Source of the DNA: Pontibacter qinzhouensis
GTDB taxonomy: Bacteria > Bacteroidota > Bacteroidia > Cytophagales > Hymenobacteraceae
Length of the DNA: 64,000 nucleotides
Assembly (NCBI RefSeq): GCF_008017455.1
Contig: NZ_VRTY01000019.1
Location: 1-64,000 of the forward strand
Direction of reading: 5' to 3'
Within the stretch, counting starts at the first letter, position 1. Each line of letters starts with the position of its first letter. This document shows positions 35,528 through 39,460 of this stretch, one piece after another. The position numbers were made by a program, and so were the translations under genes. A model generated the notes under the pieces. That model was not told where the DNA came from, did not search any database, and worked only from the letters and a program-made list of their open reading frames with translations.

Positions 35528-36595
35528 ATGACAAAGCGCCGATTTATTCCTTTCTCTGAGCTGAAGCACCGCAAAGCCATTGTGGTGGATAGTATGCACC
35601 CCAACGGTCTGGTTTTATCGCATTGGCGGGGAGCACCTACGCCTGCCGAAGTCCGCGATAATACGAGTGCGGCCATGGTGCTGCATGCACTACGGTTTAA
35701 CCTTCCTGGCCTGGACCTGCCATACGTTACCGCCAATCATTTCGATATCGATGGTTTTGTAGGAGTATGGAGTTTGCTAAACCTGGAGCTGGCGCTGGAG
35801 AACGAGGAACTGTTGAGGCAAATGGCCCTGATTGGCGATTTCAGGGAACTCGACCTGAACCACCCGCTGGCGGGGGAGGCCCTGAAGTTGGTATGCTGGA
35901 TAAATGCCCGCGAAAAGCAACTGTTTTACCCGCCTTTTGGTGCCGAGCAACTGCCGGAGCCGGAAGTAACGCTCTGCCCTAAAAAGTTCGCTTACTTTTT
36001 GCGGGAATTTGGACGAGTGCTGCAAGACCCTAACTGGGAAAAAGCTGCCTGGGAAGAAGAAGTAGGAGAGGTGTTGCTGGGTTACCGCGATATGTACAAA
36101 CCCACCACAAAACTTAGCCGCCACCCCGACATTGGCCTGGTTGTGCTGCAGCTTCCGGAGCCACTGCATTACTATGCGCTCTTTAGCCGTACCCAGGGCT
36201 TCGATATAGTGCTTTCGTGCTACAGCGGTAACCGCTATGAGCTGGAATACAAGTACACCACCTGGGTCGATCTTGGCTCCAGGCCCACCTTGCCGCGCAT
36301 CAACCTGGCTCCTCTGGCGGCACGTTTAAATGCCTTGGAGACCTCCGGCCACACCTGGACCTACGATGCCATTACAGAGACAGGCCCCCTGCTGCGGCTC
36401 AACGGAGATAAACTGACGCAGGTTGAAACTTACGATAACCCGACGGCACGAATTATACATGCTTCTTCTATTTCTGTGGAGGAGCTACAGGAGGTCGTGG
36501 TCAATTATTTTAGAACAGCCTACCAGGGCATTGAGCCGCGTACTTTCTGGACCTGGAAAGAAATAAAGGAGCTGCAACTGGCGCTGCCTCTGTAG
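35528..36595 (+). CDS. Conserved hypothetical protein with HFDIDG motif (DUF6687-like)
   Basis: A 355-residue soluble protein without signal peptide. It may belong to the Bacteroidota family catalogued as DUF6687; that name is from memory and unverified. The most striking site is 'TANHFDIDGFVGVW' at about residues 68-81, an HxDxD pattern near the N-terminus that recalls the metal-binding motif of DHH-type phosphoesterases. An earlier 'VVDSMHPNGLVLSHWRG' and a later 'SRHPDIGLVVLQLPEP' have similar acidic/histidine character. The rest is not recognisable. It stands alone between pncB and the nuclease gene. A hydrolase is a guess. Confidence 0.75.
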   Translation: MTKRRFIPFSELKHRKAIVVDSMHPNGLVLSHWRGAPTPAEVRDNTSAAMVLHALRFNLPGLDLPYVTANHFDIDGFVGVWSLLNLELALENEELLRQMALIGDFRELDLNHPLAGEALKLVCWINAREKQLFYPPFGAEQLPEPEVTLCPKKFAYFLREFGRVLQDPNWEKAAWEEEVGEVLLGYRDMYKPTTKLSRHPDIGLVVLQLPEPLHYYALFSRTQGFDIVLSCYSGNRYELEYKYTTWVDLGSRPTLPRINLAPLAARLNALETSGHTWTYDAITETGPLLRLNGDKLTQVETYDNPTARIIHASSISVEELQEVVVNYFRTAYQGIEPRTFWTWKEIKELQLALPL

Positions 36596-36724: not shown

Positions 36725-37528
36725 TTGAAACTGCTTTCTTTTAAAAATTGGCTACTTTACCTGCTGTTGCTCGTTTCGGGTTGCCAGCAGGACCCTGGCA
36801 ATACCCATGAGACCCGCCACCGGCAGGAGCAACCAGCCGATGCCACCATGGCCAAAACAGAAGAACTGTCGCAATCCGAAAGCCGGAAGCCTGAAAACAC
36901 TGCCGGCGACAAGGTAATAGCTGTAAAAGATGGCGACACCATGGATTTGCTACGAAACGGGCAGGTAATCAAAGTACGCCTCTACGGCATAGACAGTCCC
37001 GAAAAGAACCAGGATTTCGGGCAACGGGCAAAGCAGTTTGCCTCCGACCTGGCTTTCGGTAAATATGTGCAGCTCATAGCGCACAACACCGACCGCTACG
37101 GCCGCACCGTAGGTACCATAATTTTGCCAGACGGGCGAAACCTGAACGAGGAGATGGTACGCAGTGGGTTTGCATGGCACTACAAAGCATATTCTAAAGA
37201 CCTGAGCCTGGCTAACCTCGAAACCGATGCCCGCCGTTTTAAGCGAGGCCTCTGGCAAGACCCAAACCCCACGCCACCCTGGGACTTCCGCAAGAACAAA
37301 AGCAGCAACACCGCCGAAACTGCCGCCGCGGAGCAAGCAAAATCTCCGATACCGGCAGGAGCAACTAAACGAATTGTTTACCTTTGCGATAGCTCCGGAT
37401 CTGCTGTTTACCATGTTTCTGCCACCTGCTCCGTATTAAAGCGTTGCAAAGCCGAGGTACTGAAAATAACCGAGGCAGAGGCAATACGAGAGCATGGCCG
37501 CCGGCTCGATAAAACGTGTGGCTCCTGA
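36725..37528 (+). CDS. Thermonuclease-family (SNase-like) lipoprotein with cysteine-rich tail
   Basis: A 267-residue surface or periplasmic nuclease. The start is a TTG: only this start includes the lipoprotein signal ('LLLLVSGC', Cys20), and the next ATG (M42) would remove it. The staphylococcal-nuclease fold spans about 62-190, with 'KDGDTMDL', 'VRLYGIDSPEKNQDFG' (Arg85, Asp90, Glu93) and 'NTDRYGRTVGTI' (Arg124/Arg127), which match the usual catalytic Arg/Asp/Glu/Arg set. After a spacer comes a separate tail (about 217-267) with C221, H230, C235, C241 and C265, closely related to that of the next gene. The tail's second-to-last cysteine is replaced by Asp262. Confidence 0.9.
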   Translation: MKLLSFKNWLLYLLLLVSGCQQDPGNTHETRHRQEQPADATMAKTEELSQSESRKPENTAGDKVIAVKDGDTMDLLRNGQVIKVRLYGIDSPEKNQDFGQRAKQFASDLAFGKYVQLIAHNTDRYGRTVGTIILPDGRNLNEEMVRSGFAWHYKAYSKDLSLANLETDARRFKRGLWQDPNPTPPWDFRKNKSSNTAETAAAEQAKSPIPAGATKRIVYLCDSSGSAVYHVSATCSVLKRCKAEVLKITEAEAIREHGRRLDKTCGS

Positions 37529-37566
37529 GCGTCGCTTAGGCTTTATGTTAAAACTGTACATTTTTC

Positions 37567-38001
37567 ATGATAACAACGCCCAAAAAACTCAACTTTAAAA
37601 TTGCCTTTTTAAAAGAAATGCAGGTGTCGGTGCTGGTATTTCTGCTGAGCTTTACTGCCTGCCAAAGCCCGGAGCAAAATCAGGCAGATACCGTGGCTGC
37701 TGAACAAACGCCAACTACCTCGCTGGCCGATTCGCTTGCGCAGAAGGAACGCCGGCCTGCACCCGAGTTCCACCGGATACCAACTGATATGGCGCAGGAA
37801 AGGGTATATGTCTGCGACGATGCCAATGCCGATGTCTTTCACACCCAATACGACTGCGAGCTACTGGCCGCTTGCAAAACCGTTAAGAAGAATGTAACCA
37901 TTATTCGTGCCGTAGAAGACTACGGTCGTTACAACTGCGACATCTGCAGCAAAGACCTGGCTGTTATTTTTGATGACCAGCAAGTTATTCAGAAACGCTA
38001 A
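37567..38001 (+). CDS. Small lipoprotein with the same cysteine/histidine tail domain
   Basis: A 144-residue lipoprotein (signal with Cys32 in 'LLSFTACQS'); an internal ATG at 37618 is an alternative start. After a low-complexity linker, residues 79-130 hold C83, H92, C97, C103, 'DYGR' and C124-x2-C127. The spacing C-8-H-4-C-5-C-16-GR is identical to that in the nuclease 38 bases upstream, which suggests duplication of a domain. It lacks any catalytic domain. The Cys/His set could bind zinc or another metal. The function is unknown; co-transcription with the nuclease is likely. Confidence 0.8.
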   Translation: MITTPKKLNFKIAFLKEMQVSVLVFLLSFTACQSPEQNQADTVAAEQTPTTSLADSLAQKERRPAPEFHRIPTDMAQERVYVCDDANADVFHTQYDCELLAACKTVKKNVTIIRAVEDYGRYNCDICSKDLAVIFDDQQVIQKR

Positions 38002-38021: not shown

Positions 38022-38069
38022 CAGCCTTGTGAAGGTCTACAAATATTTGTAAACCTTCACAAGGCTGTT
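38022..38069 (+). terminator. Terminator of the nuclease/lipoprotein operon
   Basis: Long arms CAGCCTTGTGAAGGT / ACCTTCACAAGGCTG with additional TACAAA/TTTGTA pairing inside, ending in TTTGC. The U-run is short but the stem exceeds 20 bp. Confidence 0.82.
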
Positions 38070-38608: not shown

Positions 38609-39460
38609 ATGAAAAAGATTCTTTGCCCAACCGACTTCTCAAAAACAGCCAGCAAGGCTGTGGAATATGCTGCAGCTATTGCCGGACGCGCAGGCGCACA
38701 TCTTACGCTTATGCATGTGGTGCACCTGCCTGTAGTCGATACTTCCGAAACCGCACTTATTGCCAGCGAGCTGCTGCAGGATCAGATACGCGATGCCAGT
38801 GAAAAAATGCAGGCGCTGCTGTACGACATAGAGCAGCAATACGAGGCAAACAGGGGAGCCTTCACCTGCGACTTCATCGTTAAAGAATCGCTCTTAACAG
38901 ATATTGCAGAACACCTGACCAGCCGCGAAGGCTACGACCTGGTGGTGATGGGAACAACCGGTGGAGGTAGCGCCCTGGAGGAACTCCTGATTGGGAGCAA
39001 CGCCGAAGCCGTGATCAATCAGGTACGATGCCCGGTTCTTACCATTCCTGCATCTGCTACCCAACCCGACATCAGCAAAATTGTGTATGCCTCCGATTAT
39101 GTAGAAGATGACAAATTTGCTTTGCAACAGGTGCTGGAACTGGCGCGACTGTTTAACGCTACCGTAGATGTGATTCATGTGGTAAAAGAAGCAACCCCGG
39201 AAAGCAAAACCAAGTCACAACGGTTCTGGGAAGAACTTCAGCAGGCGTATCCGCAAAGTCCGTTGCAGTTCCAGGAGGTAGTTAGCAGGCACCGCCAGGA
39301 TGGCATAAAGGCCTATTATAACGAATCCGGAGCAAGCCTGGTCGCTATTCTGCGCAAAGACAAAGGCTTTTTCGAAGAGCTTTTCTCCAGAAGCCTTGCC
39401 GAAAAAATGACATACAAAGCCGATGTTCCCCTGCTCGTGCTGCACACCCTGAAACATTAG
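38609..39460 (+). CDS. Tandem universal stress protein (UspA family)
   Basis: A 283-residue cytoplasmic protein with two UspA-type domains. The first (1-148) begins 'KKILCPTDFSKTASKAVEYA' and has the ATP-binding signature G-2x-G-9x-G(S) in 'GTTGGGSALEELLIGSNAEAV' split over its end (about 131-145), followed by 'CPVLTIP'. The second (from about 156) has 'IVYASDYVEDDKFALQQVL' but its loop is degenerate ('RSLAEKMTYKADVPLLVLH'), so only one nucleotide site is likely. Two-domain Usps are common in Bacteroidota and are associated with stress survival. Confidence 0.92.
   Translation: MKKILCPTDFSKTASKAVEYAAAIAGRAGAHLTLMHVVHLPVVDTSETALIASELLQDQIRDASEKMQALLYDIEQQYEANRGAFTCDFIVKESLLTDIAEHLTSREGYDLVVMGTTGGGSALEELLIGSNAEAVINQVRCPVLTIPASATQPDISKIVYASDYVEDDKFALQQVLELARLFNATVDVIHVVKEATPESKTKSQRFWEELQQAYPQSPLQFQEVVSRHRQDGIKAYYNESGASLVAILRKDKGFFEELFSRSLAEKMTYKADVPLLVLHTLKH

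Follow-up and report, generated by a model that had tools for sequence, protein, structure and literature searches.

A probable Ada-like metal-binding module shared by an exported nuclease and an adjacent lipoprotein in Pontibacter qinzhouensis

Two adjacent genes of Pontibacter qinzhouensis encode proteins that end in the same pattern of Cys and His residues, one behind a staphylococcal-type nuclease (SNase) domain and the other in a small lipoprotein that contains little else. This raises the question of what the shared C-terminal module of ~50 residues is, and of what it may do in two such different settings. The genes lie in a 64,000-nucleotide stretch of DNA, which is referred to below as the window. 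The relevant features are as follows.

36725..37528, + strand: nuclease gene, 267 aa, TTG start, encoding a predicted lipoprotein with an SNase domain, a linker and an Ada-like tail (PF00565, translation, 28-row alignment)
36725..36784, + strand: nuclease signal peptide and lipobox (LLLLVSG-C, Cys20), read in the sequence and seen in the alignment
36905..37258, + strand: SNase catalytic domain, residues 61-178 (structure match to 3t13; alignment)
37373..37525, + strand: Ada-like tail of the nuclease, residues 217-267 (profile comparison; structure model)
37567..38001, + strand: lipoprotein gene, 144 aa, encoding a lipobox, a low-complexity linker and an Ada-like domain (translation; present in all 50 sampled genomes of the genus)
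37567..37662, + strand: lipoprotein signal peptide and lipobox (SFTA-C, Cys32), from inspection of the sequence; translation could also begin at an internal ATG, residue 18
37801..37956, + strand: Ada-like domain of the lipoprotein, residues 79-130 (structure model; 1u8b alignment; viral-library matches)
38022..38067, + strand: long hairpin past the gene pair (energy -31.4 kcal/mol, z -7.2; 0 of 200 shuffles equally stable)

An earlier sequence-only reading of this locus had described an exported nuclease beside a stand-alone lipoprotein, with identical spacing C-8-H-4-C-5-C-16-GR in both C-termini. Translation confirmed the coordinates it gave for the two open reading frames, and the spacing is borne out, occurring in only these two proteins among 364 six-frame stop-to-stop segments of at least 60 aa in the window. 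The formula is correct but incomplete, as a final CxxC of the lipoprotein (Cys124, Cys127) also belongs to the motif, which comprises Cys83, His92, Cys97, Cys103, Gly120-Arg121, Cys124 and Cys127 in the lipoprotein and Cys221, His230, Cys235, Cys241, Gly258-Arg259, Asp262 and Cys265 in the nuclease. Asp262, rightly singled out before as replacing a Cys, stands at the first Cys of this final CxxC. Chance similarity of the two tails can be rejected, as their ungapped local score of 85 beats all of 1000 shuffles (best 51), and a genome search with the lipoprotein as query matches the nuclease tail at E 3.6e-5.

The pair itself is real, but the earlier reading overlooked that the nuclease, with its LVSG-Cys20 lipobox, is itself a predicted lipoprotein, as is its small neighbour; Cys20 is invariant in all 28 aligned rows. 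The SNase domain scores 91 bits against PF00565 (cut-off 21), and its model superimposes on staphylococcal nuclease 3t13 with Z 18.4 and rmsd 1.6 over 117 residues. Residues D71, R85, D90, E93 and R127, which align with the staphylococcal catalytic set, are invariant in 28/28 rows, and the domain appears active by sequence. The protein thus shares its catalytic domain with staphylococcal-type nucleases (PF00565) and differs from them in adding a lipid anchor and an Ada-like tail. Excalibur-tailed exported nucleases, which also end in a tiny metal-type module, resemble it in layout, but their motif differs and the window tail gives no Pfam Excalibur match. After the lipobox Cys, nucleases are mostly K/Q-rich with scattered Asp/Glu and lipoproteins are Q-rich, although the pattern used here misread or missed several rows; the Bacteroidota surface-export signal C-X-K-(D/E)2-X was defined in other genera (PMC5080379).

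To place the module among known folds we rely on structure models and on sequence profiles. The lipoprotein model, built from an alignment of 40 sequences, is confident over residues 61-130 (pLDDT 92-98, and 96-98 over 71-130), while the rest of the chain is disordered, giving a pTM of 0.58. The nuclease tail is modelled at pLDDT 90-94 over residues 211-260 and has the same order of secondary-structure elements. A Foldseek search of the PDB with the lipoprotein model gave eight matches, all with E 6.5 or worse. When 49 of the top 50 chains were re-aligned, the only one reaching Z>=2 was the N-terminal domain of Ada (N-Ada) on DNA, 1u8b, with Z 3.7 and rmsd 2.6 over 49 residues (model 77-132 on Ada 25-76), a Z that a common structural arrangement could also produce. 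The viral structure library BFVD gave 17 matches, and five of the first nine carry Ada names, the annotation being 'Metal binding domain of Ada' in four cases and 'Ada-like Zn-binding domain protein' in the fifth; the names of the remaining four are uninformative. These proteins of phages and archaeal viruses (e.g. A0A410N6S7 and A0A8S5RIM2) are alike in fold, with A0A8S5RIM2 reaching rmsd 1.5 over 51 columns, but the best E value is just 5e-3 and none was seen linked to a nuclease here.

The sequence-only reading had proposed a profile search with the two tails. A profile of 20 diverse tails matched seven Ada-like sequences with E 1.3e-7, probability 94% and score 34.9 over 44 columns, where 300 column shuffles reached at most 15.7 and 300 shuffles that kept the Cys/His columns at most 19.5. 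Two of the seven Ada-like sequences, from Ilyobacter and Monoglobus, serve as intermediates, and a match to six Ada-type sequences alone was weaker (score 28.1, E 1.8e-5, 17 columns); an earlier tail alignment had matched the Ada-type sequences at E 1.9e-4 and probability 48%. In shuffles against the Ada-type sequences, 299 of 300 stayed at 15.4 or below; the remaining one reached 131.3 across 12 columns although its summed probability was zero, which we take to be a numerical fault of the kind also met in a first run of 60 shuffles. A PDB search with the tail profile returned only CD3-gamma matches (E >=0.74); with the Ada-like alignment as query N-Ada comes up at 4e-14, but that alignment contains Ada and the result is uninformative on the tails. 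Membership of the Ada-like superfamily is well supported at the level of sequence profiles, and the module very probably belongs to the Ada-like (N-Ada10) metal-binding fold.

In this register the module shares with N-Ada (PF02805 Ada_Zn_binding; 1u8b, 1adn, 1zgw) three of the four ligand Cys and an A...G-R-P-C-x-x-C end. The His lies at the place of Cys38, the second Cys at that of Cys42, and the fifth and sixth positions of the motif at those of Cys69 and Cys72. It differs in having His for Cys38, an extra Cys pair, export signals, one ligand changed to Asp or Glu in many rows, no attached DNA-repair domain, and in going undetected by Pfam. At E up to 10, Pfam (PF02805 and Excalibur included) gave no match to the module in the two window proteins or in seven other tails, and NCBIfam matches all fell far under cut-off. 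The earlier reading had counted a match to an already characterised domain as evidence against it, and one was found in the Ada-like fold, but the methyl-acceptor Cys is missing and the branch is unknown to the Pfam and NCBIfam models. The fold itself is known; its setting outside the cell is unusual, and the models searched do not recognise it there. The open literature (PMC5080379, PMC11377751, PMC5031224, PMC4437013, PMC10957082; subscription journals lie mostly outside it) yielded no account of an Ada-like module on exported nucleases.

Homology to N-Ada would fit a function as methyl acceptor or alkylation sensor, and a few stand-alone copies of the module do have umuDC-type or SRAP genes nearby. 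Export signals are present on the proteins, however, and the place of Ada Cys38, the methyl-accepting residue (PMC4437013), is occupied by His in 142 of 144 rows and by Tyr in the other two. We reject this function, whose probability is close to nil. The same paper describes contacts of Ada Arg45 and Arg71 with DNA bases; these residues have no clear counterparts in the tails examined, so sequence-specific DNA binding would not be expected.

The 144 rows are distinct Bacteroidota sequences, those with identical last 120 residues being counted once and loci L001-L035 and L126-L142 being left out; the nuclease of genome G051 (L247), which has a shorter spacing, stands outside every ligand count, and the broken nuclease fragment L077 was taken as a nuclease here and as a stand-alone protein in the charge, tree and related counts. 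All six Cys/His residues (C,H,C,C,C,C) are present in 47/47 lipoproteins, in 15/15 nuclease tails of sister genera and in 3/3 fusions to an SH3b-like region. The set is complete in 15 of 34 stand-alone proteins, 18 of which end in C-x-x-Glu and one of which is truncated. In nuclease tails of the same genus the fifth place is Asp in 45/45 rows (0/15 in sister genera), and two of these 45 also have Tyr for the His. As Asp and Glu are possible metal ligands but incapable of disulfide bonding, this pattern favours a metal held at the His, the second Cys and the final two places, and a metal site in the module may be inferred from it. All 144 rows have both the first and the third Cys (partly by selection, as the profile and the pattern demand both), and neither is present in the Ilyobacter and Monoglobus relatives or in the Ada-type rows, which suggests that these two form a disulfide.

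The Cys/His pattern could instead be a disulfide knot with no metal. This would suit exported proteins, the joint presence or absence of the first and third Cys, and the loss of His in two nucleases. Against it, the His is otherwise kept throughout, the corresponding positions bind metal in Ada, and Asp (45 rows) or Glu (18 rows) takes the place of one Cys in the final pair with the rest of the pattern retained, a change that a disulfide would not tolerate. We regard a metal-free knot as very unlikely. A small metal- or disulfide-based domain, as the earlier reading had it, is in this respect best described as a metal-type domain of the Ada-like kind.

We then consider where the module is found. 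The lipoprotein (E 2.9e-25 or better) is present in 50/50 sampled genomes of the same genus, including the window's own, and in 0/100 others of the family, 24 of which give weaker matches to the lipoprotein query (E 5.9e-7 to 0.0042). The tail profile matches at least 99/150 family genomes and, with up to 17 candidates scored per genome, at least 26/395 phylum genomes including the window's own, probably a lower bound; the expectation of similar tails in other Bacteroidota was thus right. Beyond the window's genome, the phylum sample gave 28 matches. Every one lies in a short open frame (63-104 aa), and all except L120 have a signal-like N-terminus as judged by eye. SNase domains were found in at least 97/150 family genomes, 72 of which each contain a single strong match, at E 3.5e-25 or better, and among the matches listed the tail lies behind 72/72 of these, 71 in a single frame and one behind a frameshift. 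Two divergent SNases (L250, L251), whose full sequences were examined, are without the tail. A phage source of the module is unsupported: two scans of viral contigs found no relative of it, PHROG gave no match for the window nuclease tail and only weak matches for the lipoprotein in its signal/linker region (E 0.019, 0.029), and, for the 135 phage records matched by the nuclease query, the best 25 of 135 end by residue 214, before the tail. A plasmid search with the lipoprotein query gave no match.

The phylogeny of the tails bears on how the pair arose. The lipoprotein tails fall into a single clade (100/100) with a long stem, and in the unrooted tree they group with the nuclease tails of the genus and with 6 of 14 from sister genera, apart from the stand-alone tails (92/96), which makes a nuclease tail the likely source of the lipoprotein. 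A common origin of the lipoprotein and the nuclease tail is supported by these sequence comparisons. Duplication 'in place', as previously proposed, is neither shown nor rejected: AU testing gave p 0.36 for the genus nuclease tails and lipoproteins as one clade and p 0.235 for the other grouping, rejecting neither on so few columns (53).

The two copies differ in charge. Lipoprotein domains are the sole negative class, with a mean of -1.3 (range -4 to 2, 47 rows), and mean charge is +3.2 in nucleases of the genus (42 rows, excluding L080 and L082, which lack the His), +6.8 in sister nucleases (15 rows), +3.3 in the SH3b type (3 rows) and +4.3 in stand-alone proteins (35 rows). The stretch from the second to the third Cys holds 0-1 Lys/Arg in 44/47 lipoprotein rows and three in 42/44 nuclease rows. 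Among the rows examined, a nuclease tail that loses a ligand is seen only in the lineage with a separate lipoprotein copy.

A survey of gene neighbourhoods, which the earlier reading had also suggested, found the nuclease and lipoprotein genes adjacent on the same strand in 32/39 loci, with a median gap of about 44 bp (measured from the first in-frame ATG, L077 and L095 being left out). In the other 7/39 they lie on opposite strands about 10-12 kb apart, so co-transcription of the pair is not obligatory. In 39/40 relatives' loci a universal stress protein gene is found close to the lipoprotein gene, even where the nuclease gene has moved away. In the window this stress protein gene (38609-39460) runs in the same direction as the pair, and in 39 relatives' loci it points toward the pair, making a local inversion in the window likely. 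Just upstream of the pair is a DUF6687 gene (35528-36595) that is kept nearby in many relatives.

In 90 proteins encoded near stand-alone tails, chosen from 171 listed ORFs, raw counts gave Endonuclease_NS 4, SRAP 3, HNH_4 3 and Y-family polymerase 2 as the most frequent families related to DNA. The endonuclease ORFs of L214 and L204 were added by hand (DRGH pattern), the automatic choice having taken overlapping frames there, and as these two loci are one plasmid the four Endonuclease_NS matches represent three records. Two Hymenobacter plasmids have a stand-alone tail gene followed by a gene for a signal-peptide DNA/RNA non-specific endonuclease, and in the third record (L215) an endonuclease gene with a lipobox-like start precedes the tail gene. 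In two plasmids a stand-alone tail gene lies beside umuDC-type genes. The Hymenobacter plasmids and contigs with an exported stand-alone tail and a DNA/RNA non-specific endonuclease and/or umuD and a Y-family polymerase are listed here.

L204, 2405-4326
L246, 1931-5783
L245, 3890-6463
L215, 3440-4651

As raw counts, these neighbourhoods are suggestive of an association with nucleases.

The module might nevertheless be a structural cap or a cell-surface binder (of peptidoglycan or polysaccharide) with no part in DNA handling, the lipoprotein then being an independent surface protein and a neighbour merely by descent. Three Hymenobacteraceae proteins (L048 8424-9065, L052 8024-8650, L054 5794-6441) join the module to a weak SH3b-like region (25.7 bits against a cut-off of 27 in the one scanned), and these fusions point to the cell surface and not to DNA. 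The acidic lipoprotein and the persistence of its gene beside the stress protein gene when the nuclease is gone also fit such a role. It accounts poorly for the presence of the module on every strong family SNase among the matches listed, for stand-alone copies that adjoin exported endonucleases in three distinct records, and for the basic charge of every class except the lipoprotein. We consider this alternative unlikely, if still a serious competitor.

The explanation that we favour, although tentatively and with a confidence somewhat short of even, is that the pair forms a DNA-degrading unit at the outer membrane, and that a copy of its Ada-like tail became a separate accessory subunit. Both genes would make one such membrane-anchored unit, in which the nuclease tail would be an exported Ada-like module with a metal held by the His, the second Cys and the last two positions (the places of Ada Cys38, Cys42, Cys69 and Cys72), and the first and third Cys, a pair that Ada lacks, would be joined by an extracellular disulfide. 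Being basic, the tail of the nuclease likely handles nucleic acid, and may help to hold it for the catalytic domain. The lipoprotein would be a copy of the tail without a catalytic domain that kept a complete metal site and turned acidic, and is most likely an accessory or regulatory subunit beside the nuclease, and not a DNA binder. The computed evidence supports the fold and homology, the export and lipid signals, conservation, linkage and common origin. From this we infer the metal, the disulfide, the holding of DNA and the joint working of the two proteins, and our hypothesis of a partner or regulator draws on linkage, common origin, charge reversal and the complementary ligand states.

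A stronger version, which we think distinctly unlikely as it stands, is that an outer-membrane nuclease in an ancestor of the Pontibacter group copied its own tail into a lipoprotein that is now a metal-dependent partner, binding and controlling the nuclease at the surface. The copies would then have specialised, with equally low confidence on our part: the nuclease tail would have lost a ligand (Cys to Asp, and in two species also His to Tyr) and stayed basic, and the lipoprotein would have kept its site and turned acidic. The analysis places an exported version of the Ada fold, with an extra Cys pair, on secreted nucleases across the family and in tiny stand-alone exported proteins across the phylum. 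Ligand loss in the nuclease tail, in the rows examined confined to the lineage with a separate copy, offers a natural experiment on the role of such extracellular modules and on whether a copied tail turned into a regulator.

Several single loci depart from the general pattern. Genome G127 has a second lipoprotein gene (L095 8095-8532) with neither the nuclease nor the stress protein gene within 18 kb. In L222 (4502-5500) and L223 (3758-4666) the module is fused to an exported region of ~250 aa, for which the one scanned gave no Pfam match. In genome G008 of the same genus (L252 68-966), a frameshift in the linker splits the SNase domain from an otherwise conserved tail, and this is either a recent mutation or a sequencing error. 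Past the gene pair in the window, the hairpin at 38022-38067 is a nearly perfect and very stable palindrome; it has no clear T run and is absent from the output of the terminator scan, and it possibly marks the end of the transcription unit of the nuclease and lipoprotein pair.
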